Source of the DNA: Prevotella sp. HUN102
GTDB taxonomy: Bacteria; Bacteroidota; Bacteroidia; Bacteroidales; Bacteroidaceae
Reading direction: 5' to 3'
DNA length: 64,000 nucleotides
Assembly (NCBI RefSeq): GCF_000688375.1
Contig: NZ_JIAF01000004.1
Location: 1,488,001-1,552,000 of the forward strand
Positions 1,425-28,408 of this stretch are shown here, piece by piece. Made by a program: the position numbers and the translations under genes. Below the pieces are notes generated by a model. The model did not search any database, was not told the origin of the DNA, and saw only the letters and a program-made list of their open reading frames with translations. Numbering within the stretch: position 1 is the stretch's first letter; each line of letters begins with the position of its first letter.

Positions 1425-1425
1425 T

Positions 1426-13551: not shown

Positions 13552-13555
13552 CAGT

Positions 13556-13780
13556 GCTAAAAGAATGATAGTAACCTATCCCGGTGAGCATCGGTCATTG
13601 CTCAGTTTGTTTGTCTGGGCATTTTTTATGCCCATAAACTGAATATATTGGCGGTTGCCATCTCGTAGAATTTTCAAAGCCCATCGGGTAGAGACATCAT
13701 TCTTTTAGCAGCGGGATGTGCAGCCGCCTCTCTGTATCTCTGCCCCGGCAGTTCCGGGGATGCTAAAAGAATGATGCAAT
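13556..13780 (+). ncRNA. structured leader RNA, copy A (repeat / anti-repeat / repeat switch)
   Basis: About 225 nt from the predicted start to the ATG at 13781. Elements in order: R1 GCTAAAAGAATGAT (13556-13569); hairpin GGGCA-TTTTTTA-TGCCC (13617-13633); 5' strand of helix P2, GGCGGTTGC (13650-13658); anti-repeat CATCATTCTTTTAGCA (13695-13710); 3' strand of P2, GCAGCCGCC (13720-13728); hairpin CCCCGG/CCGGGG (13743-13759); R2 TGCTAAAAGAATGAT (13761-13775) five bases before the start codon. The anti-repeat can pair with R1 or R2 but not both. Copy B at 27891 keeps all pairings with different bases. This looks like a translational or attenuation switch; no named RNA family is recognised. Confidence 0.75.
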
Positions 13781-14044
13781 ATGCAACAGACAATCCATTT
13801 CGAGCCCTCCGCCCAAGCGCGGCAGCCCCTCGACGTACTCGCCACGACACGGCGCGCCATTCGTCAACGCCTGTCAACCGTCAGCCGGCACCTGAATCAC
13901 TGGCTCCGTGCCGAGTCGAAAACCTTTACCGCCCTCTGCGGCGAACGTTTCACCCACGGCGAAGTGCTCCTTGCCCACCTGTTTCTCATCGCCATGATTG
14001 CCGCGTGCGGCTTGGCCGAATGGCTGGAAGGAGGTGCGCTATGA
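13781..14044 (+). CDS. small membrane protein of cassette A (MQQTI family), 87 aa
   Basis: Starts MQQTIHFEPSAQARQPLDV and shares this N-terminus with the 28100 gene (MQQTI-FE--AQAR---DV-AT-RR-I). The middle is basic and helical; the end has one hydrophobic segment (LAHLFLIAMIAACGLAEWL, residues about 62-80). Translation begins right after the R2 repeat of the structured leader. The stop overlaps the next start (ATGA). The family is unknown to me; single-pass inner-membrane protein is inferred. Confidence 0.65.
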   Translation: MQQTIHFEPSAQARQPLDVLATTRRAIRQRLSTVSRHLNHWLRAESKTFTALCGERFTHGEVLLAHLFLIAMIAACGLAEWLEGGAL

Positions 14045-14193
14045 CCGTCGCCCTCTCGCCCTCGGCAGCCTACGGCGCAGTGCGCATGGCATGGCAGCAG
14101 TTCAAGGCGGCACCCACCGACACGGCAGCCATCGACGGCTACCTCGAAGCCCTCGAACGATTCAACGGCATGCTCGACAGCATTGCCGTCTGA
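14041..14193 (+). CDS. small helical partner gene of cassette A, 50 aa
   Basis: ATG 14041 overlaps the stop of the membrane protein gene by ATGA, so it is translationally coupled. The product (MTVALSPSAAYGAVRMAWQQ, ending GMLDSIAV) is a single soluble helix pair. The equivalent position in cassette B (28405) has a longer 95-residue protein, also coupled by ATGA, also short and helical. No family recognised. Confidence 0.5.
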   Translation: MTVALSPSAAYGAVRMAWQQFKAAPTDTAAIDGYLEALERFNGMLDSIAV

Positions 14194-14224
14194 AGATATA
14201 TTTTTTAGAGCATTTCAAATCCGG

Positions 14225-14264
14225 GGAGCGGTGCGCCGTGAGGCGCGCCGCTCCACATCTTTTT
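14225..14264 (+). terminator. terminator of cassette A
   Basis: Two-part stem GGAGCGG/CCGCTCC and GCGCC/GGCGC around a GTGA loop (14225-14254), followed by ACATCTTTTT. It ends the cassette A transcript before the convergent hicAB operon. Confidence 0.8.
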
Positions 14265-14275
14265 CTGAAGCCAAG

Positions 14276-14305
14276 AAAAAGGTCGGAGCATTGCTGCCCC
14301 GACCT
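14276..14305 (-). terminator. terminator of hicAB operon
   Basis: On the minus strand AGGTCGG (14305-14299) pairs with CCGACCT (14286-14280) and is followed by TTTTT. It lies 30 bases past the hicB stop. Confidence 0.8.
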
Positions 14306-14334
14306 GCCATTGGAAGTCTGCTGTCAAACAATAA

Positions 14335-14745
14335 CTATACAACGGCTATAAGTTTCCTGCCTATCTCGTGCAGTCCCTCCACAATGCGCTCACGCTGCTG
14401 TGGGCGGGGCTTCTTCACACCGTTGGCATAGTGGCTCAACTGCCTTTCGTTTACGCCCGATGCGCGCGATATGGCGGCAAGGCTGGCATACTGCTCGCAC
14501 GAACGGATAAGGGCTGCCGTGTCAAGATGATAGTCAAACTCGTATTTCCCATCACGCAGCCATTGGGGAACATCATCACCGTCGGCAACCATGCCTTCTA
14601 CATGGAACTGCAGGGTTTCCGGAATTTCTTTCATCAACTCATCGTAGGTCTTTGCCGTAAGTACCACTGCTCCGGGTACGTTATCGCCAAAGGTTGCGCC
14701 AAAATTATGGTCGCACCATTCTATATATACTTTTATCTGCTCCAT
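14335..14745 (-). CDS. hicB: HicB-family antitoxin
   Basis: 136 residues from ATG 14745 (MEQIKVYIEWCDHNFGATFG); a longer frame to 14928 would overlap hicA and is not used. The first 60 residues have the degenerate HicB ribonuclease-H-like fold, with VPGAVVLTAKTYDELMKEIP where the family reads an acidic strand-helix. The C-terminus is an XRE helix-turn-helix (AAISRASGVNERQLSHYANG) that binds the operon's own operator. It neutralises HicA. It sits second in the operon, after hicA, the usual order. Confidence 0.9.
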   Translation of the reverse strand: MEQIKVYIEWCDHNFGATFGDNVPGAVVLTAKTYDELMKEIPETLQFHVEGMVADGDDVPQWLRDGKYEFDYHLDTAALIRSCEQYASLAAISRASGVNERQLSHYANGVKKPRPQQRERIVEGLHEIGRKLIAVV

Positions 14746-14783
14746 AGTGTTTGTTGTTTTATTTTTGTTGGAAGGTAGGGTGG

Positions 14784-14978
14784 TTATTTCCACCCTGCCT
14801 GTTTCCAAATGCTGTTCAATAAAAACTGACTCAAATCCTCGTTCTTTTGACCTCTTACCGTTACCTTGCCGGGCTTTGTCGGATGCTTGAACTGTCGGTG
14901 GTCGCCCTTTGTCGTGATGCACACCCAACCGTCGGTTTCGAGCATCTTGATGACTTCCTTTACTTTGTACCTTTTCAT
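14784..14978 (-). CDS. hicA: HicA-family mRNA interferase toxin
   Basis: 64 residues from ATG 14978 (MKRYKVKEVIKMLETDGWVC). The dsRBD-like HicA fold is plain: GDHRQFKHPTKPGKVTV holds the conserved Gly-x-His catalytic segment (H at about residue 27). Longer starts at 15005 or 15038 are excluded because the promoter's -7 box lies at 15008-15015. HicA cuts mRNA when free of HicB. In a prophage the pair may stabilise the element or act against other phages. Confidence 0.92.
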   Translation of the reverse strand: MKRYKVKEVIKMLETDGWVCITTKGDHRQFKHPTKPGKVTVRGQKNEDLSQFLLNSIWKQAGWK

Positions 14979-15007
14979 TTGTTGTATGTTGTTATTGTTT
15001 GACATTA

Positions 15008-15039
15008 CAAAGGTAGTAAAAATAATACTATTATCCAAA
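15008..15039 (-). promoter_or_regulatory. hicAB promoter
   Basis: On the minus strand TTTG (15039-15036), 20-base spacer, TACCTTTG (15015-15008). Just upstream, at about 15056-15075, lies the imperfect palindrome AGTATTAGTTTTAATACT, and AATACTATTA is in the spacer; both are candidate HicB operators. Confidence 0.75.
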
Positions 15040-15106
15040 TAAAATGGAAATAAAGAGTATTAGTTTTAATACTTTTAACTATTTTCCCCCACTTAGTTTC
15101 GTGTCT

Positions 15107-15137
15107 TTTGCCCTCCCCTCCGCTTTCCTTATCTTTG
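15107..15137 (+). promoter_or_regulatory. promoter of the terminase operon, leaderless start
   Basis: TTTG at 15107-15110, 19 bases, TATCTTTG at 15130-15137, then CCTT and ATG at 15142. Transcription expected about five bases after the box would begin on the A of the start codon. The identical arrangement TATCTTTGCCTTATG occurs at 30908. Confidence 0.75.
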
Positions 15138-15141
15138 CCTT

Positions 15142-15333
15142 ATGAACAACGACTTACAGCAACTGCTCAGCCAGATAGCGGCAATGACCGACCTTGCCGA
15201 AGACGTGCGCATCATCCTTGACAAACTCATAGAGCAAGCCAAGGAGGGCAGCACCGATGCCGTGAAGGAACTGCGCGACACCGTGCAACAGGTAAAGGAG
15301 GAGAGGCTGCGCAAAGACCTTTTCGGCGTATGA
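15142..15333 (+). CDS. small helical phage protein, first gene of packaging operon, 63 aa
   Basis: MNNDLQQLLSQIAAMTDLAE, then two amphipathic helices (VRIILDKLIEQAKEGSTDAV). Acidic/helical, no membrane segment. The predicted transcript starts at the ATG, so it may be translated as a leaderless mRNA. The stop overlaps the terminase-small-subunit-like gene (ATGA). It may be a packaging accessory; no family recognised. Confidence 0.6.
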   Translation: MNNDLQQLLSQIAAMTDLAEDVRIILDKLIEQAKEGSTDAVKELRDTVQQVKEERLRKDLFGV

Positions 15334-15974
15334 CACAACTTGAACGCATAGAACAGATACACCCCGACCTTATCTCGCAGTTCTTCGCAACGGGCGAGTG
15401 CGAAGCTATCCCTGAGGAGCTGCGCCTGTTTCTGCAACAGTTGCAGTGGGCTATGGAGATATACGAGCACGAGCGCAATATCACTCGTGCCGCACGCCGT
15501 CTGCAGCAGCGCATCAACGCCCAGCAACACGTGAAGATAGAACAGCGCACCTGTATGGCACGGCTCTACGAGGCCATCAACTACTTTCAGGTGGACAACA
15601 ACGTGCCCATCAAGATATGGGAGAACCAGTATGCCAACCAGTTTGAGAACCTTGCCAAGATGTGCGCCCTCGCCGGCGACTACAAGACGCAGGGCAAGTG
15701 CTACGAGCGTGCGCTGGATTGCCGCCGCCGTGCATCGGAGATTACCGAGGCCGACCGTGACCTCGGCGTTACCTTCATCATCTCGCCCAACATCACCGCC
15801 GAGGAACTGGGCTTCTCGAAGAAGAACCTCAAGGAGATTGCCGCCAAGCACAACCAAGGCTTCTATGTTACGCTCATCGACTCGCTGCCTATCGAGGCGA
15901 AGGAGAAGAAACGGTTGCTGCGCGATGCCGATATTCAAGATGCTGAAATAGTGGAGGAAATACAGAATGACTGA
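15330..15974 (+). CDS. terminase small subunit-like protein
   Basis: 214 residues. The N-terminal half has a helix-turn-helix-like stretch (EIYEHERNITRAARRLQQRI) and the protein ends in an acidic tail (DADIQDAEIVEEIQND). The stop overlaps the large terminase gene by eight bases. Immediate adjacency to the large subunit and a DNA-binding-like N-terminus make it the small terminase, which recognises the packaging site. Sequence alone would not prove it. Confidence 0.65.
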   Translation: MTQLERIEQIHPDLISQFFATGECEAIPEELRLFLQQLQWAMEIYEHERNITRAARRLQQRINAQQHVKIEQRTCMARLYEAINYFQVDNNVPIKIWENQYANQFENLAKMCALAGDYKTQGKCYERALDCRRRASEITEADRDLGVTFIISPNITAEELGFSKKNLKEIAAKHNQGFYVTLIDSLPIEAKEKKRLLRDADIQDAEIVEEIQND

Positions 15975-17730
15975 CAACCAAACCAATGAGAACAGCGTGC
16001 CCGACTTTGAGCACTACTATATGAACCACGTGCAGCTGCTCGCCAATATCATTGACCCCAATATGCTCTATGCCGAGTGGGCGCGTGCCACGGGTAAGAC
16101 TGAGGGCGTGATAGTGCCACGCCTTATCCGTGTGGCAAACGATATGCCGGGCGAGCTGTCGTTCCTTGTCCACAAGACCTATGTCGCCCTGATGACCAAC
16201 GTATGGCCGAATATTCAGGCATCGTTCTCTCGCCCCGTAATCGTGAACGGCAAGCAGCGTGCGATGCTCGAGTATGGCATCGACTATGTGGTGGGCGAGG
16301 CGAAACTGCCCTCCCACTTCCGCCGCCCACGCTACCCGATAGCCTACGCCAAGCACTCGGTCATCTTCCGCAATGGGGCGCACCTGCAGCTTGTATCTTC
16401 CGACCAGCCTGAAAGTGTGGCAGGTCGCAACGCCGTCCATGCCTTCGTGGAGGAGATGAAGCACAACAGTGGAGAGAAACTCAAGTCGCGCCTGTTCCCT
16501 TCTCTTCGTGGTGGCTCGGCAGACATACGTCGGTCGGCCTACTACGAGGGCGTAACTGGTGTGAGCGATACTGCCCGTGTGGATTTGGGCGAAGATGATT
16601 GGTTTGAGGAGTATGAAAACAAGATGGACCGTCAGCTCATCGAGGAGATAGCCAATGTGTCGCTCGCCATCAACCAGTCGCTTTATAAACAGTTTACCCT
16701 TCAACAGGAATTGCGCAATACTAAGAATCCAGTCGTAATGGAGAAAATACGACTGGAGAGCAATCGGCTCAACGCCTTCGTGGCACGATGGAAGCCACGT
16801 CTTGCCGATATGCGGCGCAACGCCATCTACTATATCCGGGCATCATCGTTCTGCAACAAGGACATCCTCGGTCCCAAGTTCTTCAAGACCCAGCTCGACA
16901 CGCTCGATATGGATGAGTTCCTGACCGCCATCTGCGCCATACGCCACAAGGAGGTTACTAACAAGTTCTTCACTACCTACGACCACGAAAGGCAGCAGTT
17001 CAAGGACAGCTATATTTACGATCAGATTTTGAAGTTCGACCTCAAAGACCAATTCCTGCTCACGGCACGCTATCTGCGCCATTACGACAAACGCGAGCCT
17101 CTTTATATGGGTTATGACCCGGGCAACTTCCAGTCGCTCATCGTGGGACAAAAAAAAGACTATGGCAACCGTTTCGACATCATCAAAGAGTTCTGGGCGT
17201 ATATCCCCGACGATCAGCAGAATCTTGCACAGCAGGTGTACTCGTTCTTCGGTACCGATGCCGTGAACAAGGTAATACACCTTTATCCCGATCGTGCCGG
17301 AAACAAGACACGCGAGGAGTTGGAGCAGATAACCACCGACTCGCTCACGATGAAGGCAGCCTTGGAAAGCTACGGTTTTTCGGTGTTCCTTTACAACGAC
17401 GGTGCACCTACCATCTACCACTGGCAGCAGTTCCGGCTTTGCCAGTTGCTCTTCGGAGAGAAACTTCCCTTACTCCCCAAGGTTCGTATCGATGAGAACG
17501 AATGTGCCAATTTGTGCAGTGCCATTATGATTAGTCCTCTGAAGAAAAACAACGGTAGGATAGAGCTGGATAAGTCGAGCGAGAAGAAGGAAGAACTGAA
17601 ACGTCGTCCGGGTCTGACCACGCAGCTTCCGAGTGCAATGATATACCTTCTTTATGGTCTTTATTCGGACATTATCAAGAAGGAACTAAGCAGTTATCCC
17701 GATGATTTGCCCGAAAACATCACGATATAA
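15967..17730 (+). CDS. terminase large subunit
   Basis: 587 residues. The ATPase domain has a variant Walker A WARATGKTEG (Lys44) and a Walker B AFVEEMKH with acidic residues at about 162-163, plus a coupling-motif region. The C-terminal RNase-H-like nuclease starts at MGYDPGNFQS (Asp384), with later acidic residues LYPDRAGNKTREELE near 440. It powers DNA packaging and makes the cuts at genome ends. The gene lies between the small subunit and the portal, as expected. Confidence 0.93.
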   Translation: MTDNQTNENSVPDFEHYYMNHVQLLANIIDPNMLYAEWARATGKTEGVIVPRLIRVANDMPGELSFLVHKTYVALMTNVWPNIQASFSRPVIVNGKQRAMLEYGIDYVVGEAKLPSHFRRPRYPIAYAKHSVIFRNGAHLQLVSSDQPESVAGRNAVHAFVEEMKHNSGEKLKSRLFPSLRGGSADIRRSAYYEGVTGVSDTARVDLGEDDWFEEYENKMDRQLIEEIANVSLAINQSLYKQFTLQQELRNTKNPVVMEKIRLESNRLNAFVARWKPRLADMRRNAIYYIRASSFCNKDILGPKFFKTQLDTLDMDEFLTAICAIRHKEVTNKFFTTYDHERQQFKDSYIYDQILKFDLKDQFLLTARYLRHYDKREPLYMGYDPGNFQSLIVGQKKDYGNRFDIIKEFWAYIPDDQQNLAQQVYSFFGTDAVNKVIHLYPDRAGNKTREELEQITTDSLTMKAALESYGFSVFLYNDGAPTIYHWQQFRLCQLLFGEKLPLLPKVRIDENECANLCSAIMISPLKKNNGRIELDKSSEKKEELKRRPGLTTQLPSAMIYLLYGLYSDIIKKELSSYPDDLPENITI

Positions 17731-17997
17731 CGGCCGATAATGTCCAATATCTGGTATAAAAAGCGGCCAAAACAGGGCAATAACGAAGGCTATTTACATA
17801 GGTCGAAAACATACTTTTCTGAAAATCAATGCTTTGAGTTCTGAGAAACAAAAATAAAAAAGTCCAAACGACGGAAATCACCACGCACCGCTGACTTTGA
17901 GTATTGAGGTGCAGCTCTTCGAAAGTACGGAAATATGACACCAACCTCCATTTTCCGTCCTTTGCCCCCATAGAGGAATTGCGTAATTTCGCAACCG
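17731..17997. other. gap with possible leaderless promoter for the portal operon
   Basis: 267 bases with no gene. TTTG at 17961-17964, 19 bases, then TAATTTCG at 17984-17991 (one mismatch to the box) would start transcription near the ATG at 17998. A small palindrome TTGCGtaatttCGCAA covers the box. Nothing else is apparent in the rest. Confidence 0.4.
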
Positions 17998-18315
17998 ATG
18001 GAAAAGAGAATCGAAATGGACGGCATCAATGCGATGCAATGGGCAAGGGAGATAAGCAGGCTGCCGCAGGGCGACTTCACGCTGTGCTTCTTCCCTTATT
18101 CAAGGTCGCAGGGGATGGCAGGAGACAAACTTGTGATAAAACCCCATTGCAAGTACCGCACACAGTTGCCACAGGACAAGTTTTCCGTAGATGCCGAGAA
18201 CTACTTTCTTTTCGAGGATGAGCACGGAGATCCCAAAATGTGCTACCGCATACTCATCAGGTATATGGGCTTTCCACAGGACGGATATAAACTTCATAAG
18301 ATTAACTGGTTATGA
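17998..18315 (+). CDS. conserved phage protein preceding portal, 105 aa
   Basis: Residues after MDGINAMQWAREISRLPQGD form a conserved block (FTLCFFPYSRSQG ... KPHCKYRTQLPQDKFSVDAE) ending YKLHKINWL, which I associate with a small protein found before portal genes in Bacteroidetes prophages. ATG 17998 and ATG 18016 are both possible starts. The stop overlaps the portal start. Function unknown; a head-assembly role is likely from context. Confidence 0.65.
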   Translation: MEKRIEMDGINAMQWAREISRLPQGDFTLCFFPYSRSQGMAGDKLVIKPHCKYRTQLPQDKFSVDAENYFLFEDEHGDPKMCYRILIRYMGFPQDGYKLHKINWL

Positions 18316-19781
18316 AAGACAGTATAGAACTATACGGCAATGCCGGCAACTATATTCTGGACGGCAATGTGTTTTCCTTCCAGATAGGAGAGGGACAAAA
18401 GGTATTCAATAATCCCGGACTGCTCATACCGACGGGCAGGCGGTTGCTTCTGCACGAGCACCAGTGGCTCAGCGTGAACGGCTATCAGGTGTGTATGCGC
18501 GGCGTGGACAATGCCCTGTGCGACGAGGTTACAATGGAAATCAAGCAGAACCGTCTGCTGCCACGCCTGTACAGCAAGGAGATAAAAATGCTGTACGGGC
18601 ACGGTCCGTGTGCGTATGTGCAAACTGTGGAGAACGGTAAGCTGAAACGTGAGTACACTGCTCTCCCCGAATGGGATGAGTGGCTGAACACATGGTGTGA
18701 GCGTGGTATGGAGACCTCGGCACAGGAGTTTGCCAAGAGCTGCATCAAGAACTTCTATTATTTCGGCGATTTCTTCTGCAAGTGGAGATTTGCCCGTGGA
18801 AAACGGCTGGGAATGATGCCCGTTGCCGGGTTGGAGCCGTTGGAAAACAAGCACTGCAGACTGGCAACCACCAGACAGGATGTGGCATACGGGCAGACAG
18901 GCTATGGAGATTTCCATCATATTGCCGTGGGCAGGTGGACATACGGACTGGGCAATTACAAGATATATCCCAAATTCGCCCTGTCGGAGGTGGACAATTA
19001 TCTCTATGCTGCCGTATCGCACCACAGGGAGAAATCGGTCGATGAGTTCTACGGCGTAAACGAGACTCATCAGGGAGCGCGCCCCTATATTCAGGGCAGC
19101 AACAAGACGGCTACCTATATAAACTCCTTCCTCCGCAACTCGCTCGCTGCGAAGATCCACATCATCATTCCCAATGCGTGGGTAAGCAGCAAGCGCACGC
19201 AGCTCATCAAGCTCTGCGAGGAGAACAAACTGCTCAAGTCCAAGGACAAAGCCCTGATAAGATACAACGGCATCGAGATAGGCACGGAATACCGTGAATC
19301 GCTGCTTGTAGAATATATGCGACTGGAATTGCGCAAGATAGGCGACTATCTCAGCGGAGCTGACAATCAGGGAAAAGCATATTCCTCAATATCATTTATG
19401 GACTCTTCAGGTAATGAGCAGCAGTGGAAGATTGAGACCGTGGACCTCAAGTACAAGGAATACATAGAAGCTCTCATTGCCTATGACAAGCGGTCTGAAG
19501 AAGCCCTGCTGTCGAGCGTGGGACTGGATGCCTCTATCACGGCAGTAAGCAAGGATGGTGTGATAAGCAAGTCCGGTTCGGACGCCTACTACAACTATCT
19601 TATATATATAATGTCGCTTACCTCGGAGGACGAGATTTGCGCCGAGCCCTTCAACCTTGCCCTGCGGCTCAACTTTCCGCATCTCTACAGGCAGGGCTAC
19701 CGTATCGGGTTCTACCGTGAGGTGCCCCAACGACAGGAGGAAATATCACCCAAAGACCGACTTAATCAGCAACAGTCATGA
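18312..19781 (+). CDS. portal protein
   Basis: 489 residues, between terminase and head-completion genes, the normal place and size for a portal. It has long helices in the C-terminal half (RESLLVEYMRLELRKIGDYL), a Ser/Gly-rich wing (AYSSISFMDSSGNEQQWKIE, about 355-375) of the kind found in portals, and DASITAVSKDG near 415. The ring it forms sits at one vertex and feeds DNA into the head. Motifs are weak, so position weighs heavily. It overlaps both neighbours by four bases. Confidence 0.8.
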   Translation: MKDSIELYGNAGNYILDGNVFSFQIGEGQKVFNNPGLLIPTGRRLLLHEHQWLSVNGYQVCMRGVDNALCDEVTMEIKQNRLLPRLYSKEIKMLYGHGPCAYVQTVENGKLKREYTALPEWDEWLNTWCERGMETSAQEFAKSCIKNFYYFGDFFCKWRFARGKRLGMMPVAGLEPLENKHCRLATTRQDVAYGQTGYGDFHHIAVGRWTYGLGNYKIYPKFALSEVDNYLYAAVSHHREKSVDEFYGVNETHQGARPYIQGSNKTATYINSFLRNSLAAKIHIIIPNAWVSSKRTQLIKLCEENKLLKSKDKALIRYNGIEIGTEYRESLLVEYMRLELRKIGDYLSGADNQGKAYSSISFMDSSGNEQQWKIETVDLKYKEYIEALIAYDKRSEEALLSSVGLDASITAVSKDGVISKSGSDAYYNYLIYIMSLTSEDEICAEPFNLALRLNFPHLYRQGYRIGFYREVPQRQEEISPKDRLNQQQS

Positions 19782-20656: not shown

Positions 20657-20830
20657 GAGGGGGAGATTGAGAGGTTAGAGGGAGTCAGGAGGAGTTAAAG
20701 ACAATACTGCCGTGAGGATGGGAAATGGGAGACGGAAAATGGGAGATGGGAAACAGAAAATGGGAAAGCTCTTGCAGCTTGAACTGTTGTCTTTAACTCC
20801 CTTAACTCCTGAAAAAAACTTTCCCTGAAT
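20657..20830. repeat. intergenic repeat, copy R3 (long form)
   Basis: Left arm GGAGTCAGGAGGAGTTAAAG, then GACAATACTGCCGTGA (20699-20714), then GGGAAATGGGAGATGGG-type 7-base units, then a centre (GAACTGTTGTC) and TTTAACTCCCTTAACTCC at 20793-20810. The arms are complementary. The GACAATACT(G/T)CCGTGA box is shared with copy R6. Confidence 0.8.
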
Positions 20831-20848
20831 TCTAAAACAACAGTGAAT

Positions 20849-21820: not shown

Positions 21821-21824
21821 GACG

Positions 21825-21900
21825 GGAAACGTTAGATGTTAGATGGGAAAACATTCCCATCTAACATCTAACATTTAACATCCCCCATCTAACATCTCAA
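21825..21900. repeat. heptad repeat, copy R4 (short form)
   Basis: A short purine arm (ATGTTAGATGGGAAAACATT) opposite CATCTAACATCTAACATTTAA-type units, all from the 7-base CAT-Y-T-M-M pattern. It fills the gap to within four bases of the next ATG (21905). The arms ATGTTAGATGGG / CCCATCTAACAT are complementary. Confidence 0.8.
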
Positions 21901-21904
21901 GAAT

Positions 21905-22489
21905 ATGATTAAAGACCAATTTCTTTATTTCGCACGATACCCCAGAAAAGAAGGAGTTCTTGCCATCTTTACCAACGGTGCGAGCCATACTCCCGGCTAT
22001 GGCGACATCGTCCGTGAACTGAGAGAACTCCCCGAAGACTCCCGGATACCCGAACTCGACAACTACGTCTACGGACAGTCATTCGAGGATGTGCAGCAGC
22101 GCATAGACAAACTCATAGGCTCATACCTCTTCGTAGACTATGGAGAAATCAACCTACGCTCAGACGGACGCAACTCATACCAGTGCGTCCAACGCATAGC
22201 CGTCACCATAGCCTGCAAGATGCCCAACCGTGCCGATGCCGCAGAACGTATGCTCGCATCCGACAACACCCTCCGTCTGCTCGCCCGACTGCACGCCCAC
22301 TTGCTTGCCGATGCCGATGCAGGCAGCATAGGATGGCTTGCGCGCAGCGAACTCGACAAAGCGGAAATCATCCCTTTCGTTGCCACCGAGCTCCACTCTG
22401 TCGGATGGACGCTGATGCTCTCCTGCATCGCCCCCGACACCCTCGGCACACACCATCTCTACCGGTCCTTTGCCAATCAGGCACCGTAA
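21905..22489 (+). CDS. phage structural-region protein, 194 aa
   Basis: MIKDQFLYFARYPRKEGVLA, then a mixed alpha/beta middle (FEDVQQRIDKLIGSYLFVDY) and an Ala-rich helix (ADAAERMLASDNTLRLLARL). No known motif. It precedes the lysis genes and its last codons contain their promoter. Likely a head-tail connector or tail terminator; family not recognised. Confidence 0.55.
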   Translation: MIKDQFLYFARYPRKEGVLAIFTNGASHTPGYGDIVRELRELPEDSRIPELDNYVYGQSFEDVQQRIDKLIGSYLFVDYGEINLRSDGRNSYQCVQRIAVTIACKMPNRADAAERMLASDNTLRLLARLHAHLLADADAGSIGWLARSELDKAEIIPFVATELHSVGWTLMLSCIAPDTLGTHHLYRSFANQAP

Positions 22490-22499
22490 AGTAACTTTG
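22469..22499 (+). promoter_or_regulatory. promoter of lysis genes
   Basis: TTTG at 22469-22472, 19 bases, TAACTTTG at 22492-22499. The -33 box is inside the last codons of the upstream gene. Drives holin, endolysin and spanin-like genes. Confidence 0.75.
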
Positions 22500-22521
22500 T
22501 ACAGCAAAAAACGATCAGCGT

Positions 22522-22773
22522 ATGAAACCGAACACGAAAGAATGGTTCCAGTACATCACGGCCGGAGGAATGATTGTCAGCGGCGTGGTGCTCACGTTCC
22601 TCTGCTTCTTCCTGAACCATTACCAGATCAGCGACTCCGTGCTCTGGTATATGGCACAGGCACTCGTCTATGCCGGCAGCATCTTCGGGGTGTCAATGTA
22701 CATCAAGACGAAATGGGGAGAAGTGAAGAACGACGTGAAGAATATCATAGACGAGGAATTAAGCAAAAAGTAA
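22522..22773 (+). CDS. holin-like protein, two membrane segments
   Basis: 83 residues. Two hydrophobic segments (about residues 12-31, AGGMIVSGVVLTFLCFFLNH, and 42-60, WYMAQALVYAGSIFGVSMYI) with a charged C-terminal tail rich in Lys (WGEVKNDVKNIIDEELSKK). This fits a class II holin. It is followed after seven bases by the endolysin gene, so the lysis role is well supported by context. Confidence 0.8.
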   Translation: MKPNTKEWFQYITAGGMIVSGVVLTFLCFFLNHYQISDSVLWYMAQALVYAGSIFGVSMYIKTKWGEVKNDVKNIIDEELSKK

Positions 22774-22780
22774 GCATACA

Positions 22781-23299
22781 ATGGCAACAGAAGCACAGCG
22801 CGCCTTCGCACGCAACATCTATCAGGCAGCCCTCGAGGCTACCGACATCGCCCCCGAGTTCGTAACGGCACAGGCCATCCTCGAGAGCGGGTGGGGCAAG
22901 TCCCGGGTGGGCAGGTTCAATCTCTTCGGCATTACCAAGGGAACGGGCTGGACGGGAAAGACCGTCCTCGTGAAGACCCACGAGTATTTCCCAACACCCA
23001 ATCGCAGGTTCACGGCTCCCGAGCGCATAGTCTCCGTCAGCAAGTGCAAGACTCCGGGCAAATGGTACTACACCGTCTACCGGCTCTTCAAGGACTTCGA
23101 CTCCCTTGCCGACTGTCTGCACGAACACACCCGGCTGCTCCGTAAGCCCGGCTATGCCGACGCCTGGCCCTACCGTAGGGATGCCGAGGAATTTGCACGT
23201 CGTATCTGCGACAGCAAGGGAAGCAGATATGCCACCTCGCCCGACTATCTCCGCACGCTGCTCTCGCTTATCAAGTCTGTCCGTTCAATATGCCAGTAA
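22781..23299 (+). CDS. endolysin, glucosaminidase (FlgJ/lysozyme-like) domain
   Basis: 172 residues. The motif AQAILESGWGKSRVGRFNLFG around residues 31-51 is the catalytic-Glu segment (Glu35) of the glucosaminidase family, followed by FDSLADCLHEHTRLLRKPGY. The protein is only the catalytic domain, without signal peptide or binding domain, so it needs the upstream holin to reach the wall. It cleaves peptidoglycan glycan strands at lysis. Confidence 0.9.
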   Translation: MATEAQRAFARNIYQAALEATDIAPEFVTAQAILESGWGKSRVGRFNLFGITKGTGWTGKTVLVKTHEYFPTPNRRFTAPERIVSVSKCKTPGKWYYTVYRLFKDFDSLADCLHEHTRLLRKPGYADAWPYRRDAEEFARRICDSKGSRYATSPDYLRTLLSLIKSVRSICQ

Positions 23300-23303
23300 G
23301 CCT

Positions 23304-23972
23304 ATGACACCGAAAGTAAAACTCACTTGGAACGCCATCAGTCTTATCCTGATGACGCTCTTCGCAGGGATGACTATCCTTGCATTCAGGGCATACAGCG
23401 AAGTCAAGGCCGACCGCGACCGGCTCAGGGAGAATCAGAAGATGCTCCTCCACAACGGCGTGGTGGAGATAACTCAAACTGACACGGGCAACAGCCGTGC
23501 TTCCACTCCGGCACTTACCCTGCGTCCCGAGGAGTTTCTCCGAAGCGGCGACACACTGAGAAAGGTTGCCCGGCAGGCAGGTATCAATGGCTCACGGATA
23601 TCTGCGGCAGCCACCACCTCTACGGTTACCAGTGCTGAAATCGTCACTTCCGTCTCTCATTTCCCTGTTCTTCCATCCTTGCCACACGACAGTGTCATCT
23701 TACCGCTCTCTCACTCCTTAACTTCCGAATCCATTGACACTGTTACCTGTTTCTCGTGGCAAGATCCGTGGCTGTCCCTCTCAGGCTGTGTGTCGGATTC
23801 ACTCTTTCGTGGAACAATATCATCCACCGACACGCTTGACATCATCGTCCATCGTGTGCCCAAGCGATTCCTGTTCTTTCGTTTCGGATGCCGGGAAGTA
23901 CGTATGGACATCATAAGCCGAAATCCTCATACCCGGCTCACATACGCCCGATATTACAAACTGGTCAAATAA
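23304..23972 (+). CDS. Rz-like / spanin-type lysis protein, 222 aa
   Basis: ATG 23304 follows the endolysin stop by four bases; the frame is open upstream but only as shadow. N-terminal membrane anchor (residues about 10-28, AISLILMTLFAGMTILAFRA) followed by a short coiled coil (YSEVKADRDRLRENQKMLL), then a long Ser/Thr/Leu-rich periplasmic part, ending MDIISRNPHTRLTYARYYKLVK. It is the third gene of the lysis cassette; an inner-membrane spanin or Bacteroidetes counterpart is inferred. Confidence 0.65.
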   Translation: MTPKVKLTWNAISLILMTLFAGMTILAFRAYSEVKADRDRLRENQKMLLHNGVVEITQTDTGNSRASTPALTLRPEEFLRSGDTLRKVARQAGINGSRISAAATTSTVTSAEIVTSVSHFPVLPSLPHDSVILPLSHSLTSESIDTVTCFSWQDPWLSLSGCVSDSLFRGTISSTDTLDIIVHRVPKRFLFFRFGCREVRMDIISRNPHTRLTYARYYKLVK

Positions 23973-24019
23973 ATGCTTTCATAGTTATTAGTTTTTGGTT
24001 ATTAGATTTAATCAGGTTC

Positions 24020-24050
24020 GATAGCCGTCGCAGTGATTGCGACGGCTATC
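24020..24050 (+). terminator. hairpin terminator after lysis genes
   Basis: Perfect 13-bp stem GATAGCCGTCGCA / TGCGACGGCTATC with a five-base loop. The tail (TCTCTCATAT) is not a clean U-run, so termination strength is uncertain, but it is the obvious end of the lysis operon. Confidence 0.7.
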
Positions 24051-24186
24051 TCTCATATCATATATTAGCAGAAGATAAACAGTTCTAACCGACTGATTAT
24101 AAACAAACTACTACTTGCACGTTCCTCTTTATAGTGTTACCTTAGCAGTACAATTAGAAACAAAGAACATTCAAAAAACAAAGATT

Positions 24187-25131
24187 ATGAACGAGCAAAT
24201 TCAGAACATTCTCAACGAGAACGGAACAAAAACTTCCAAGATTCAGAAACTACTTGCCCTCGGACTTACACGCCGACAGGTTGCCGACCTTGCTGCAGGT
24301 GGAAACTACGGCTTTGTACAGAACGTTTACAAGCGTATGATGCAGGGATTGACCACCACGGCAGCACAGGCAGCAGCCACGGTCATTCCCCAACTTGATT
24401 ACACCTTCAACCGTAACTTCGGTGTTGAGATAGAGGCTTACAACTGCACACGCATCCATCTTGCAAGTGAACTCAGCGCAGCGGGAATCAACGTGCAGGT
24501 GGAAGGCTACAACCACACTGACCACACCGACCATTGGAAAATCGTCACGGACGGCAGCCTCAGTGGAAACAACACCTTCGAACTGGTCAGCCCCATTCTT
24601 CACGGGGAGCAGGGACTTGAGGAACTTGAAAAGGTGTGCTGGGTGCTCGACCTATGCAATGTGAAGGTAAACGACTCTTGCGGACTCCACGTTCATATGG
24701 ACGCTGCCGAGTTCGACCTGCAGACTTGGAAAAATCTTATCCTTGCCTACAAACGCCTTGAGGGAGTCATTGACCATTTTATGCCACGCAGCCGTCGCAA
24801 CAACACCTACTGCAAAGGACTTACCTCCATCACTGAAGCAGCCATTAACAGGGCAGCCAACATCGGAAACTTACGGGCTGCCTTCCACAACAATCGCTAC
24901 CACAAGGTAAACCTCGAAGCCTACGCACGCCATCGCACAGTGGAGTTCCGACAGCACGGAGGTACGACAAACTTCACGAAGATGTCAGCATGGATTCATT
25001 TTCTCGCAAAAATGATTACCTTTGCAAAACAGGGAACGGTACAGGCAGGCACGACCCTCCGAAGCATTCCTTTCCTGACAGAAAGCGAAAAACTCTACTT
25101 CAAATTGAGAACAAAAAAATTAGCAGTATGA
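24187..25131 (+). CDS. amidoligase-family protein
   Basis: 314 residues from ATG 24187 (a TTG at 24115 lengthens the frame). Residues 1-60 form a helix-turn-helix-like start (KIQKLLALGLTRRQVADLAA). From about 78 the phage amidoligase (ATP-grasp/GCS-like) pattern follows: FGVEIEAYN, WKIVTDGSLSG, FELVSPILHG, DSCGLHVHMD around 165-174, KGLTSI, and HRTVEFRQHGGT around 265. These are the metal and nucleotide-binding residues of the family, which forms amide bonds; phage members are suggested to modify peptidoglycan, a peptide or a protein target. It starts an accessory island after the lysis operon. Its substrate here is unknown. Confidence 0.8.
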   Translation: MNEQIQNILNENGTKTSKIQKLLALGLTRRQVADLAAGGNYGFVQNVYKRMMQGLTTTAAQAAATVIPQLDYTFNRNFGVEIEAYNCTRIHLASELSAAGINVQVEGYNHTDHTDHWKIVTDGSLSGNNTFELVSPILHGEQGLEELEKVCWVLDLCNVKVNDSCGLHVHMDAAEFDLQTWKNLILAYKRLEGVIDHFMPRSRRNNTYCKGLTSITEAAINRAANIGNLRAAFHNNRYHKVNLEAYARHRTVEFRQHGGTTNFTKMSAWIHFLAKMITFAKQGTVQAGTTLRSIPFLTESEKLYFKLRTKKLAV

Positions 25132-25361
25132 CAACAATCTATAAGCTGAAGGATGGCGACCGGGTGGTCGCCACCTCTCCGGCAGACTTTCTCCACCAAC
25201 TTCGTACAGGCAGCCGATTCGACCATAGTGGGACAGACACCGAATATATGCATCGGTTTGCCCGGCGTCTTCAGGAACTCGAGGGTTACCTTGTTTCCAC
25301 CGAAAGCTCCGAAGCCTTCCTTGCCGACCTCATTACTCACGGTTTCGTTGTCGAAGAATAA
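25128..25361 (+). CDS. small partner of the amidoligase gene, 77 aa
   Basis: ATG 25128 overlaps the amidoligase stop by four bases. The sequence (MTTIYKLKDGDRVVATSPAD ... ELEGYLVSTESSEAFLADLI) is acidic and short with no known motif. Translational coupling makes it the best candidate for a substrate or helper of the amidoligase, though that is only inference. Confidence 0.6.
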   Translation: MTTIYKLKDGDRVVATSPADFLHQLRTGSRFDHSGTDTEYMHRFARRLQELEGYLVSTESSEAFLADLITHGFVVEE

Positions 25362-25435
25362 TACATCATGCTCATTCTTTGCAGCCGTAGCAGTTCTTAG
25401 GCTGTTACGGCTTCTCAAATGTTAAAATTTTAATA

Positions 25436-25486
25436 TAGTACGAATAAAAGTATTAAAAAAATTGCATAGTACGAATAAAAGTATTA
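25436..25486. repeat. direct repeats at the 25519 promoter
   Basis: TAGTACGAATAAAAGTATTA occurs twice (25436-25455 and 25467-25486), 31 bases apart, three helical turns. The second copy lies between the -33 and -7 boxes, so a bound protein would block the promoter. Likely operators, perhaps for the small gene product itself. Confidence 0.6.
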
Positions 25487-25492
25487 TCTTTG
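25462..25492 (+). promoter_or_regulatory. promoter of the 25519 gene
   Basis: TTGC at 25462-25465, 19 bases, TATCTTTG at 25485-25492. The spacer is covered by a 20-base direct repeat. Confidence 0.7.
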
Positions 25493-25518
25493 TAGTGTTC
25501 AAAATAAGTAATACAACA

Positions 25519-25671
25519 ATGAAAAGAAAAGTAACATTAACAGAATTAGAATTTGATTTTATCGAGACTGTCAGGAATTACAAAAGAAGCTATCCTAACG
25601 GAGAACCGGGATTAAGATGGGCACTCAATAGAATGTTGGCAGAACTACTCGATGAACCTCTTGAAGATTAA
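25519..25671 (+). CDS. small phage protein, 50 aa
   Basis: MKRKVTLTELEFDFIETVRN followed by YKRSYPNGEPGLRWALNRML and an acidic end. A basic beginning and helices fit a ribbon-helix-helix-like or other small DNA-binding regulator; repeats overlapping its promoter support autoregulation. An upstream ATG (25462) would precede the transcription start, so 25519 is used. Confidence 0.55.
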   Translation: MKRKVTLTELEFDFIETVRNYKRSYPNGEPGLRWALNRMLAELLDEPLED

Positions 25672-25676
25672 TAACA

Positions 25677-25703
25677 GCCCCCATCATTTTTTAATGGTGG
25701 GGC
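25677..25703 (+). terminator. hairpin between 25519 and DUF5053 genes
   Basis: GCCCCCATCATT and AATGGTGGGGC pair around a T-rich loop. There is no U-tract after it, so it may be an attenuating or processing hairpin rather than a full terminator. Confidence 0.45.
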
Positions 25704-25714
25704 ACAAAAACAAT

Positions 25715-25978
25715 ATGATTATGGCAACAATGACAATGACAAAGGAAAAGACTGGCACAATGAAAGCACAGTTAAAGGATATTCTGCTCTCAATTTCATG
25801 GTCAGATTTATCCAAGACCTATTTTGGAAAATCAAACTCATGGCTCTATCATAAACTTGACGGTATAGACGGTAATAAGAAACCTACTGAATTTAGTGAG
25901 GTGGAGAAATTGCAATTAAAGGGTGCACTGGTAGATCTTGCCGATCGTATCCGAAAGGCTGCCGACAGTATTCAATAA
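25715..25978 (+). CDS. DUF5053 family phage protein, 87 aa
   Basis: ATG 25715, with other ATGs close behind. From KAQLKDILLSISWSDLSKTY through SNSWLYHKLDGIDGN and EVEKLQLKGALVDLADRIRK the sequence matches the small DUF5053 family seen in Bacteroidetes phages. Function unknown; it looks like a truncated helix-turn-helix protein (a recognition-like SWLYHKLDG). Confidence 0.75.
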   Translation: MIMATMTMTKEKTGTMKAQLKDILLSISWSDLSKTYFGKSNSWLYHKLDGIDGNKKPTEFSEVEKLQLKGALVDLADRIRKAADSIQ

Positions 25979-26036
25979 GCCTTGGTAGTATTACACCATT
26001 GAACAAAAGTCGCCACCGGGCTTGTGGCGCAAGTCA

Positions 26037-26063
26037 GCCTCTCGCTTTCGCGAGGGGCTTTTT
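26037..26063 (+). terminator. rho-independent terminator
   Basis: Stem GCCTCTCGC / GCGAGGGGC with TTTC loop and TTTTT tail (26059-26063). It closes the DUF5053 transcript. Confidence 0.85.
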
Positions 26064-26108
26064 GATTACGCAGCGTAGAATTTATTACGTGATGTCGATT
26101 TTTTTTAA

Positions 26109-26116
26109 TATCTTTG
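26109..26116 (+). promoter_or_regulatory. probable promoter of nuclease gene
   Basis: TATCTTTG 28 bases before the ATG. The -33 box is poor (TTTA at about 26081), so an activator or weak promoter is possible. Confidence 0.5.
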
Positions 26117-26143
26117 TAGCATTATAAACTTAAATGTCTCTTT

Positions 26144-27235
26144 ATGGATTTCAAGGACTCTATTAAACAACTTGCTGAGAAAGTTACTCAACTAAAGGAG
26201 GGTATTCTTACAGAAGAAGCTACAAAAAATGCATTTATAATGCCGTTTATCAATGCTCTTGGTTATGATGTGTTCAACCCATTGGAAGTCATTCCAGAAA
26301 TGGATTGCGACTTAGTTAAGAAAAAGGGTGAGAAAATCGACTATGCGATTATGAAAGACGGTGCTCCCATTATCCTCATTGAATGTAAGCACTGGCAGCA
26401 GAATTTGTCGCTCCACGATACACAGCTTAAAAAGTATTTTGTTGCTTCTAAGGCAAAATTTGGTTTGCTCACCAATGGTATAAAATATCTGTTTTACACT
26501 GATCTTGAAGATCAGAACATTATGGACGAAAAGCCTTTCCTTGAAGTAGATATAACAGATATCAAGGACTATCAAATAGAAGAACTAAAGAAGTTTCATA
26601 AATCTTATTTTGATATTGATAGCATTCTTAATTCTGCCAGCGAACTGAAGTATTCGAGTGAGTTAAAGAAGATTTTTGCAGAAGAAGTTGTAGAGCCTTC
26701 TCCTGAGATTGTGAAGTATTTTACCAAGCAAGTCTATGATGGAGTTATCACAGCAAAAGTACAAGAACAATTTTCTGCATTGGTAAAAAGAGCTATCAGC
26801 AGTTACATCAACGAATTAATCTCAAATCGCCTGAAGACAGCACTCAACAACGAGGAGCAGCGTGAGGCAACGCCTTCTACCGTTCAGTCTCCAGAAGAGC
26901 AACCTGTATCCTCTCCAGAGGATTCAGACGACGGCAAGATTGTCACCACACAGGAAGAACTCGATGGCTTTATGATTGTCAAGGCTATGGTACGTAAAGT
27001 GGTTGATGTTGAGAGAGTGGTTTACCGTGATGCTCAATCATATTTTGCCATCCTGCTCGATGATAACAACCGCAAGCCCATCTGCCGTTTGTACTTCAAT
27101 AGTAAATCAAAGAAGTATATATCCACCTTTGACAATGAGAAGAAAGAAACAAAACATGAAATTACAAACCTCAACGACATCTTCAACTTTGAAAAGGAGC
27201 TGTGTGAGGTAATCAAAGCGTATGACGAGAAATAA
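26144..27235 (+). CDS. HsdR N-terminal domain-like nuclease
   Basis: 363 residues. Residues about 1-150 match the type I restriction HsdR N-terminal fold, a PD-(D/E)xK nuclease: EKIDYAIMKDG then PIILIECKHWQQNL gives the catalytic D-ExK. The middle is helical with an EEQPVSSPEDSDDG linker, and the C-terminal 110 residues (GFMIVKAMVRKVVDVERVVY) form a second domain. No helicase, HsdM or HsdS gene is near, so it works alone. In prophages such proteins are often superinfection defence genes; target unknown. It has its own promoter and a terminator before it, the typical moron layout. Confidence 0.8.
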   Translation: MDFKDSIKQLAEKVTQLKEGILTEEATKNAFIMPFINALGYDVFNPLEVIPEMDCDLVKKKGEKIDYAIMKDGAPIILIECKHWQQNLSLHDTQLKKYFVASKAKFGLLTNGIKYLFYTDLEDQNIMDEKPFLEVDITDIKDYQIEELKKFHKSYFDIDSILNSASELKYSSELKKIFAEEVVEPSPEIVKYFTKQVYDGVITAKVQEQFSALVKRAISSYINELISNRLKTALNNEEQREATPSTVQSPEEQPVSSPEDSDDGKIVTTQEELDGFMIVKAMVRKVVDVERVVYRDAQSYFAILLDDNNRKPICRLYFNSKSKKYISTFDNEKKETKHEITNLNDIFNFEKELCEVIKAYDEK

Positions 27236-27254
27236 TAACTAAAACCAAAGTATA

Positions 27255-27806
27255 ATGAAAAGATTTAGACTATTGCTGCTGATGGCATTCGTTGCTTTTA
27301 CCTGCAGCGCACAGAAACCTCTAAGTTACAGTAAGGTCATTCAAAAAGAAGGAATGACAGCCCAACAATTGTATGAGGCATCTAAGAATTGGTTTGCCCG
27401 TACTTTTGTTGACTCTAAAGCCGTAATGAGAGATGCAACCCCAGGAAAAGAACTTACAGGAAAAGGTAAGTTGGTTTTTTCAACCAATATGATGTATTCA
27501 AGTATTCAAGGATATATCGGCTACCTTATCGATATACAGTTTAAGGATGGTCGCATGAAATTCACTATGAGCGATTTTCGCCATGAACCTTCCCATGAGG
27601 CAAAATATGATAACCACATGGGTGTACTTGTAGATTCGCTCCCCAAAGATCTGAAAGATATAGGTGTCGAGGGAATGAACAGAAAGGCAAGTTATAAGTA
27701 TTACTTTAAGAATGGGATTCCACTCTGCGAGAAGCAATTTAAAGAACTCAGCGAAAGTCTTGAAGAATTCATTGATAAGCGAGAAGAGTCCAAAGACGAT
27801 TGGTAA
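27255..27806 (+). CDS. secreted DUF4468 (TBP-like fold) protein
   Basis: 183 residues. Signal peptide (KRFRLLLLMAFVAFTCSAQ, cleavage after the Ala-Gln region) and then a DUF4468-like domain: KVIQKEGMTAQQLYEASKNW, with a second half matching FKDGRMKFTMSDFRHEP. These proteins are frequent in Bacteroidetes and of unknown function. It follows the nuclease gene by 19 bases, so the pair may be one accessory operon. Confidence 0.75.
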   Translation: MKRFRLLLLMAFVAFTCSAQKPLSYSKVIQKEGMTAQQLYEASKNWFARTFVDSKAVMRDATPGKELTGKGKLVFSTNMMYSSIQGYIGYLIDIQFKDGRMKFTMSDFRHEPSHEAKYDNHMGVLVDSLPKDLKDIGVEGMNRKASYKYYFKNGIPLCEKQFKELSESLEEFIDKREESKDDW

Positions 27807-27830
27807 TTTTTGCGCTACGCAAAAATAATT
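27807..27830. promoter_or_regulatory. palindrome upstream of cassette B promoter
   Basis: ATTTTTGCG-cta-CGCAAAAAT is a perfect 9-bp inverted repeat, followed by AATT. The core matches the one before cassette A (13490-13510). Probable shared operator. Confidence 0.5.
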
Positions 27831-27837
27831 ATGTATA

Positions 27838-27875
27838 AATAATCCCCGAAATCCTTGGAGGTCTCGGGGATTATT
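27838..27875 (+). terminator. hairpin overlapping cassette B promoter
   Basis: 12-bp stem AATAATCCCCGA / TCGGGGATTATT. Its loop carries the -33 box TTGG of the cassette B promoter. It probably terminates the DUF4468 transcript. No clear U-tract. Confidence 0.5.
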
Positions 27876-27885
27876 CATATCTTTG
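27855..27885 (+). promoter_or_regulatory. promoter of cassette B
   Basis: TTGG at 27855-27858, 19 bases, TATCTTTG at 27878-27885. The predicted start is at 27890-27891, the first base of R1. Boxes and spacing are the same as in cassette A. Confidence 0.8.
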
Positions 27886-27890
27886 CCCTC

Positions 27891-28099
27891 GGAAAAGAAT
27901 AGTTGTAATCAACTCCGTAGGGCGACGGTATTCGCTCTGCCATTCGGCTGGGCTTTTTTATTGCCCAAGGGCAAGCCTTACATGACGGCTGCCTCCTCGT
28001 GAATTCTCATGCTCTTCGGAGTATTGCACTATTCTTTTCCAACGGGGAGCGCAGCCGTCACCCGTATCAAGGCGACTGCAAGGAAAAGAATAGTGCAAT
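27891..28099 (+). ncRNA. structured leader RNA, copy B
   Basis: About 209 nt. R1 GGAAAAGAATAGT (27891-27903); hairpin GGGC-TTTTTTATT-GCCC (27950-27966); P2 5' strand GACGGCTGC (27984-27992); anti-repeat at 28022-28040, complementary to R2 for 19 bases including the first base of the start codon; P2 3' strand GCAGCCGTC (28051-28059); R2 beginning 28082. P2 changes G-C to A-U and G-U to G-C relative to copy A, and the repeats differ but stay complementary. Blocks in between (GGCTGCC, CTCGT, GAATT) are conserved. See copy A for interpretation. Confidence 0.75.
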
Positions 28100-28408
28100 A
28101 TGCAACAGACAATCAATTTCGAGATTCAGGCGCAAGCCCGCCCTGCTATCGACGTCCGTGCCACGATACGGCGCAAAATCAAGTCCCTCAACCTTTGGCT
28201 CGACCAAAAGAGCGAGTTCTACAGCCGTATCGCCGAGTTCCCCGTAACTCGTCGTTTGGTCATCCGTATCAACCTCGTATCTTTGTGCCTGATTGTGGCG
28301 GCCGTTGCCATCGAGCAGCAGCCCATTGTCTCTGTCATCTCTGCCCTCTGCGCAGCCTGTTTGGTCTATCGTGTCAATCACTCAGATAAGAAAGGAGGCA
28401 AGGTATGA
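28100..28408 (+). CDS. small membrane protein of cassette B (MQQTI family), 102 aa
   Basis: N-terminus MQQTINFEIQAQARPAIDVR parallels the 13781 gene. The C-terminal half is hydrophobic with two segments (INLVSLCLIVAAVAI and VSVISALCAACLVYRV), then a basic tail. Its start codon is directly after R2 of leader copy B. The stop overlaps the next start (ATGA). Family unknown to me. Confidence 0.65.
   Translation: MQQTINFEIQAQARPAIDVRATIRRKIKSLNLWLDQKSEFYSRIAEFPVTRRLVIRINLVSLCLIVAAVAIEQQPIVSVISALCAACLVYRVNHSDKKGGKV

Follow-up and report, generated by a model that had tools for sequence, protein, structure and literature searches.

The copy-number antisense RNAs of the plasmids R1, ColE1 and pT181 form fast-diverging pairs that set incompatibility, often acting on Rep genes, and are transcribed from the strand opposite to their target, while the C4 RNA of the phages P1 and P7 controls an antirepressor operon and the CI RNA of the satellite phage P4 a replication operon. 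RNA-based phage immunity of the latter type is known from P1/P7 and from P4, and published lists of C4-like RNAs are from Proteobacteria (PMC4825925, PMC5320573, PMC2864571). In P4, the CI RNA pairs with seqA and seqC, which are located on either side of CI (PMC4825925). The C4 RNA is processed from a larger transcript, has three stems with the loops a' and b', partially occludes ribosome-binding sites and bears a variable specificity loop; between P1 and P7, cross-action is already restricted by a deviation of 4 nucleotides (nt) in C4 and the targets (PMC5320573). In Gifsy-1, the leader encoding IsrK has an early terminator, the long mRNA is bound in trans by the short form, and ribosomes go on from the short open reading frame (ORF) orf45 to anrP (PMC4825925). 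Here, we describe two homologous leader RNAs, A and B, of Prevotella sp. HUN102 (Bacteroidales), which may work in a similar manner. Both are located on a stretch of 64,000 nt (RefSeq assembly GCF_000688375.1, contig NZ_JIAF01000004.1, positions 1,488,001 to 1,552,000), referred to as the window in the following, which is part of a 2.33-Mb contig in a 3.3-Mb genome.

An initial annotation of the window had proposed that both leaders consist of a repeat, an anti-repeat and a second repeat. This anatomy proved to be right, with coordinates within 1-2 nt, and is much more widespread than first reported. As read from the sequence, both leaders share the same order of a promoter, a first repeat (R1) at the predicted transcription start, the anti-repeat (AR) and a second repeat (R2) against the ATG of the first ORF (ORF1; Table 1). 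The promoters have a -7 box, TATCTTTG, which we take to be the Bacteroidota promoter motif and which ends 3 nt (A) or 5 nt (B) upstream of R1. As had been claimed, AR can pair with either R1 or R2 over the lengths given in Table 1, and the pairing with R2 is placed over the start codon; in leader B, the AR complement reaches the first base of the start codon. A short frame that starts from an ATG in R1 of leader A, and similarly by eye in L012 (loci are designated by L numbers), was considered as a candidate for leader-peptide attenuation and rejected, as it is not kept in leader B or the L010/L015 type.

To find relatives, we collected homologues of ORF1 in GTDB genomes, further genomes and viral contigs. 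The resulting loci were mostly Prevotella prophages and viral contigs, and the named relatives found via the ORF1 proteins belong to Prevotella and near kin. Leaders A and B and 37 loci retrieved through homology of their ORF1 proteins, which were not chosen for complementarity, made up a set of 39, of which 37 showed the strict R1/AR/R2 triple; in the other two (L039 and L046), the triple is visible by eye, with wobbles or a mismatch. Complementarity is hence kept in relatives rather than lost. Many of the 39 are copies of each other, and 27 distinct leaders entered an alignment (A2). In 15 weaker ORF1 protein matches, the strict scan found no complete triple at the right place. A first scan of 157 loci for R1/AR/R2 together with TAnnTTTG resulted in 127 matches (55 distinct), while a block-shuffle control, in which one strand was scanned, produced two triples, none of them with the promoter. 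A wider scan of more loci with slightly laxer settings gave 170 matches (68 distinct) and none in shuffles on both strands. From these, 65 distinct leaders were kept; L131 (a false match in an array of clustered regularly interspaced short palindromic repeats, CRISPR), L141 (a 10-nt match) and L117 (cut at a contig end) were dropped. The scan set was selected for complementarity, so that complementarity within it is no evidence by itself. However, many different sequences fulfil the complementarity at one fixed place while shuffles do not, which argues that the layout is real, and we consider this promoter/R1/AR/R2 arrangement, together with the helix P2 described below, well supported at the sequence level.

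The initial annotation had also suggested running covariance models of the leader on Bacteroidales genomes. A model built from A2, which contains no R pairs (model R1, not to be confused with the repeat), had matches at E<=0.01 in 41 genomes out of a sample of 398 from the genus of the window; a single weak match in the own genome falls on a CRISPR spacer. A second model (model R2), built from 75 matches, hit 11 genomes among 393 from the order, and nine of these 11 belong to other families; across the phylum (296 genomes sampled), it hit the own genome alone. Among the 11 loci listed for order-level matches other than the window's, the architecture is seen at least partly in L199, L200, L201, L203, L204, L206, L207 and L210; it is faint in L202, and L205 and L208 were not confirmed. 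Nineteen leaders outside the strict list, L200, L202 and L210 among them, were chosen by hand, with AR anchored by reading. Fifteen of these have a strong R1:AR pairing and 12 an R2 that pairs better than shuffles. A subtype of the leader (L119-L121, L123, L126, L127) has a distance of about 230-360 nt from AR to R2 plus an extra 3' domain. The ORF1 protein of leader B had no match in 50,697 phage records, that of L129 none in phages or plasmids, and the DNA of leader A none in phages. The window leaders match no family of Rfam 15, either at gathering score or at E<=10, C4 families included, and six further loci showed no family at gathering score within the leaders. As the leader was also not found in the literature searched, this RNA family of Bacteroidales prophages and related mobile elements appears undescribed; an entry among the 3161 candidate structured RNAs of PMC8040213 is possible.

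The pairing segments are hypervariable. Towards R2, AR positions 0-13 (from the AR 5' end) use four Watson-Crick pair types at all but one position, that is at 13 positions, and three types at the remaining one. The changes in AR are matched by R1 as well, apart from 12 GU and 69 mismatched cells (n = 1000), the mismatches being mostly at the ends. The own duplexes with AR average -24.1 (R1) and -24.6 kcal/mol (R2), compared to -8.3 and -8.7 kcal/mol for swapped ones (55 units); as these units were chosen for complementarity, the informative part is the weak cross-pairing of the swapped duplexes. In 34 of 41 pairs of leaders with flanks at least 95% identical, the R segments were less alike than the flank (mean 0.84 vs 0.97; e.g. 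L033/L053), where gaps were ignored, which understates R divergence, and the 41 pairs are not independent. Moreover, two loci, L023 (106-1133) and L142 (1942-3095), contain tandem stacks of three leaders each, in which every unit has a separate promoter and an intact triple that differs from the others, and the ORF1s of the upstream units are truncated or altered. The frames of the first two units in L023 are open across the following leader and stop at a TAATG on the next start codon.

AR is located in the loop of a helix, P2, next to a hairpin (H4). In an alignment of 75 sequences fitted to the structure, the 12 pairs of P2 were formed in 96.6% of the cells, with both-side changes at nine pairs and 142 cells changed on both sides compared to 38.3 in shuffles, which bears out the covariation of P2 proposed earlier. 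Because AR lies in the P2 loop, not only R1:AR, as had been anticipated, but also AR:R2 would form a pseudoknot with P2. By eye, the R1 tail of the aligned leaders could also fold into a small hairpin with the nucleotides next to it, competing with the end of R1:AR. The GGGC/GCCC hairpin with a T6 loop, previously noted as kept between the two leaders, at the same time supplies the 3' arm and the U-run of a hairpin that resembles a terminator. Of the 65 leaders, 63 have a hairpin directly followed by a T5 run, and the T run lies 60-86 nt past the -7 box in 62 of them and at 114 nt in one. Termination at this predicted hairpin is plausible. A T4 run near the P2 end (30/65 leaders) is a possible second exit.

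What follows the leader is less uniform: going by the sequences, the protein encoded behind it varies more than the leader does. ORF1 of the window and of most relatives encodes a small protein with a hydrophobic C-terminal half. ORF1-A and ORF1-B belong to no Pfam and no PHROGs family, and of their 785 relatives, the 120 that were listed all lack a Pfam domain. In other Bacteroidales, the leader precedes unrelated short ORFs (L199, L201, L202, L206, L207), and no hydrophobic segment was found in ORF1 of L201, L202 and L207. In L200, R2 runs up to an ORF of 77 amino acids (aa) that covers half of the antirepressor domain AntA (PF08346, E 3.4e-12), and the leader of L203 is followed by a 257-aa Bro-N antirepressor-type protein (PF02498, E 4.3e-26). 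The operon of L151 encodes HTH_17, a Rep3 initiator (WH2 E 2.5e-7, WH1 E 6.5e-5) and DnaB (E 2.6e-32), those of L153 and L156 look similar by eye, and the second gene of L129 encodes ParA (AAA_31, E 3.4e-47).

A further common property is the end of ORF1. In both window copies, a Shine-Dalgarno sequence at the end of ORF1 overlaps the start of ORF2, and such an arrangement is likewise seen at loci with an unrelated ORF1. The motif AAGGAGG-N6-ATGA occurs twice within the window, both times at ORF1 ends, while 0.02 occurrences are expected. Among 77 leader-linked units, 69 have an ORF1 of at least 40 aa, and a Shine-Dalgarno-like site with an adjacent or overlapping ATG is present at 48 of these 69 ORF1 ends; this count scores leader A as uncoupled, as a longer out-of-frame ORF was taken, and its site was seen separately. 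The leaders thus show strong Shine-Dalgarno coupling in the phylum Bacteroidota, where Shine-Dalgarno sequences are rarely used. With the end of ORF1 coupled to ORF2, control exerted at the ORF1 start can pass on to ORF2, so that the leader would gate the operon.

Table 1 Features of the leaders, the genes behind them and the prophage integrase in the window
Feature	Coordinates	Strand	Remark
Leader A promoter	13521..13551	+	TTGG at 13521, -7 box TATCTTTG at 13544-13551
Leader A R1	13555..13569	+	predicted transcript 5' end
Leader A terminator-like hairpin and T6 run	13600..13627	+	GCTCAG..CTGGGC
Leader A P2, 5' strand	13650..13662	+	
Leader A hairpin H4	13679..13689	+	within P2 loop
Leader A AR	13695..13710	+	15 nt pair with R1, 16 nt with R2
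Leader A P2, 3' strand	13715..13728	+	
Leader A R2	13761..13776	+	ends 4 nt 5' of ATG 13781
ORF1-A	13781..14044	+	87 aa, one hydrophobic segment; diverged member of ORF1 family
Leader A coupling site	14028..14044	+	AAGGAGG-N6-ATGA; ORF2-A start 14041, frame to 14193
Leader B promoter	27855..27885	+	TTGG at 27855, -7 box TATCTTTG at 27878-27885
Leader B R1	27891..27903	+	
Leader B terminator-like hairpin and T6 run	27934..27959	+	GCTCTGCC..GGCTGGGC
Leader B P2, 5' strand	27984..27996	+	
Leader B hairpin H4	28012..28021	+	UUCG loop
Leader B AR	28022..28040	+	13 nt pair with R1, 19 nt with R2
Leader B P2, 3' strand	28046..28059	+	
Leader B R2	28082..28100	+	takes in A of ATG 28100
ORF1-B	28100..28408	+	102 aa, hydrophobic region 49-93
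Leader B coupling site	28392..28408	+	AAGGAGG-N6-ATGA
ORF2-B	28405..28692	+	95 aa; no Pfam or PHROGs family
Integrase	44864-46054	-	beside tRNA 46187-46260 (-)

On this basis, we cautiously favor the reading of the leader as a self-encoded antisense device for immunity or incompatibility, which has a hypervariable specificity and works like P4 CI or P1 C4. Transcription would start at R1, and AR in the P2 loop would represent the antisense strand. AR:R2 would cover the ribosome entry site and the start of ORF1, and a closed ORF1 would shut the coupled ORF2, and hence the operon, via AAGGAGG-N6-ATGA. R1 may act as a competing target: on the nascent RNA, R1:AR would form first and leave R2 open. 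The terminator-like site about 70 nt into the transcript may give rise to a short R1-bearing RNA, and the AR of a processed or terminated leader RNA, or that of another copy's leader, may act in trans. A resident element would thereby silence an incoming element of the same R type, with R/AR as the diversifying specificity determinant. Repression by AR:R2, the use of the coupling site, termination, processing and all trans action are what we infer from the arrangement. The initial annotation had instead proposed a switch in cis that senses a signal and opens or shuts translation of one small membrane protein. This is not supported or not needed, given the unrelated ORFs, antirepressor genes and replication operons behind the leader and the coupling of ORF1 to ORF2. 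We favor an antisense leader over a ligand sensor for the same reasons and because R varies faster than its flanks. As to a possible riboswitch, the leader core is conserved, but the genes behind it are those of mobile elements.

The comparison with the described systems points in the same direction, as the target-antisense-target order, a predicted start-codon occlusion, a coupled short first ORF, antirepressor-type or replication genes at some of the loci and a fast-changing specificity form the combination expected from P4 CI and P1/P7 C4. With P4 CI (PMC4825925), the leader has in common that target, antisense and target lie in one leader and transcript. A replication operon follows in L151 and, by eye, in L153/L156, but not in the window. 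The likeness to P4 is one of layout, and our leaders differ by their occurrence in Bacteroidales, by R1 at the 5' end of the transcript and R2 at the start codon, by an AR in a pseudoknot with P2, by hypervariable R segments, and by processing and termination being predicted. C4 (RF01695; RF02944 for c4-2) is similar in that an antisense RNA processed from a larger transcript occludes a ribosome-binding site and has a variable specificity loop (PMC5320573), and the AntA half domain (L200) and Bro-N (L203) are encoded behind R2; however, the Bacteroidales leader has one long AR beside H4 in place of the three stems with loops a' and b' (PMC5320573), and, judged by the Rfam models, it falls outside the C4 family. 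L200 contains a sub-threshold c4-2 match (RF02944, 27.9 bits vs gathering 41), the sole one in the six further loci, at 2445-2524 (-), on the same strand and about 900 nt upstream of the AntA leader. The early terminator-like site and the short coupled first ORF, both known here from sequence, resemble Gifsy-1 IsrK, but IsrK activates translation, whereas the terminated form here is a prediction and the proposed action of AR is repression. From the plasmid copy-number RNAs, the leader differs in that its antisense segment resides on the same strand, inside the leader.

Several observations weigh against an antisense immunity leader. Leaders A and B sit among late genes with no antirepressor or replication gene behind them, and a domain search of the window proteins found no antirepressor behind either. 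Among the 19 leaders outside the strict list, a clear R1 is missing in L124, L202, L200 and L210, the latter two having an R2, and a clear R2 in L113, L116, L118, L125, L122, L124 and L202. One or both coupling features are missing in 21 of the 69 ORF1s, including the replication-type L151, L153 and L155, and AAGGAGG-N6-ATGA occurs genome-wide eight times compared to six for a reversed control; since it is not enriched over this control, only the place of the motif is telling. None of 10 pairs of co-resident leaders cross-pair below -18 kcal/mol, and six more pairs are also weak, but avoidance of like R types is not above background, as other pairs cross-pair in 90 of 2070 cases. Transcript start, processing and termination are predicted from sequence. 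When the 45 nt upstream are shuffled, the terminator hairpins prove only modestly better than the control (mean energy -11.2 vs -9.1 kcal/mol; <=-9 kcal/mol in 84% of leaders vs 56% of shuffles), and a hairpin formed in 254 of 320 shuffles as well; in this control, the first leader's position was used for multi-leader loci. Finally, the R1 and R2 duplexes are similar in strength (the stronger partner of AR being R2 in 24, R1 in 30 and neither in one of the 55 units), as would also be expected of a switch that works in cis only.

Such a metastable switch is the main rival explanation. A mechanism in which R1:AR forms first with R2 open until R2 displaces R1 and shuts the start codon, or in which a ligand or phage protein on the P2/H4 core sets the balance while R drifts neutrally with compensation, would also agree with the conservation of P2 and its surroundings, with the presence of every part within one transcript, and with the GU pairs that several leaders (e.g. 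L016/L038, L025, L145) have in R1 where R2 is perfect. We nevertheless regard it as less likely: R diverges faster than single-stranded flanks even though three segments must change together, the stacked leaders with truncated ORFs keep intact, different triples, and L113, L116, L118 and L125, which we count in favor of an antisense leader, retain a strong R1:AR with no R2 in the approximately 400 nt searched, although none of these points is decisive. Both window leaders and many of the related ones are followed by genes for small membrane proteins, which, along with the diversified pairing, might alternatively suggest a module similar to type I toxin-antitoxin systems, with ORF1 as membrane toxin, AR as RNA antitoxin and R diversifying so that rival modules are not neutralised by one another. 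This appears improbable, as ORF1 in L201, L202 and L207 is no small hydrophobic protein, ORF1 is an antirepressor-type gene in L200 and L203, and it is coupled to further genes. That the inverted and direct repeats of 13-19 bp serve site-specific inversion or recombination at the DNA level is very unlikely in view of a promoter outside the repeats, the fixed orientation and place before the ATG in the units listed, the tolerance of GU pairs (12 of the 1000 R1:AR cells; R2 of L129 and L137) and the covariation of P2 as an RNA helix.

The leaders of the window belong to a prophage, as indicated by matches to a head maturation protease, HU-HIG, a tape measure protein and a tail fibre. The transfer RNA (tRNA) gene beside its integrase (Table 1) scored 61.8 bits in a permissive Rfam scan and was missed by the default scan, although it is well above the gathering score. 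The region 1411-5391 encodes a 1326-aa protein with DnaG primase domains in residues 1-345 and a long remainder without Pfam match. The own genome also carries a CRISPR array of 30 repeats (G000:C4:852462-855223). One of its 28 normal-length spacers is self-targeting and matches R2 and the start of ORF1-B at 30 of 30 positions (window 28087-28116); towards leader A, it has three mismatches. Two further spacers match window positions 26682 and 27192 with five mismatches each. A putative third leader at C4:852814 was rejected, as this place is the CRISPR spacer, and a scan of the own genome with model R2 gave leaders A and B and the spacer place only.

Beyond the antisense immunity leader itself, we tentatively raise the possibility, rather than the expectation, of an RNA immunity code shared by Bacteroidales phages and plasmid-like elements, in which interchangeable R1/AR/R2 segments of about 14 nt would be placed before antirepressor, replication or late operons. 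The three segments would change in concert, for example by quasi-palindrome correction, and tandem stacking might render one element immune to several R types. The leaders represent a family in Bacteroidales that comprises dozens of natural specificities. Each message would bear an antisense "off" strand of its own, set between two copies of the target, and the match differs from virus to virus in a lock-and-key-like manner. If the leaders act in trans, exclusion between prophages could be predicted from about 14 nt, it would become possible to test directly how immunity specificity evolves, and the family would provide orthogonal antisense/target pairs for work in Bacteroidales.

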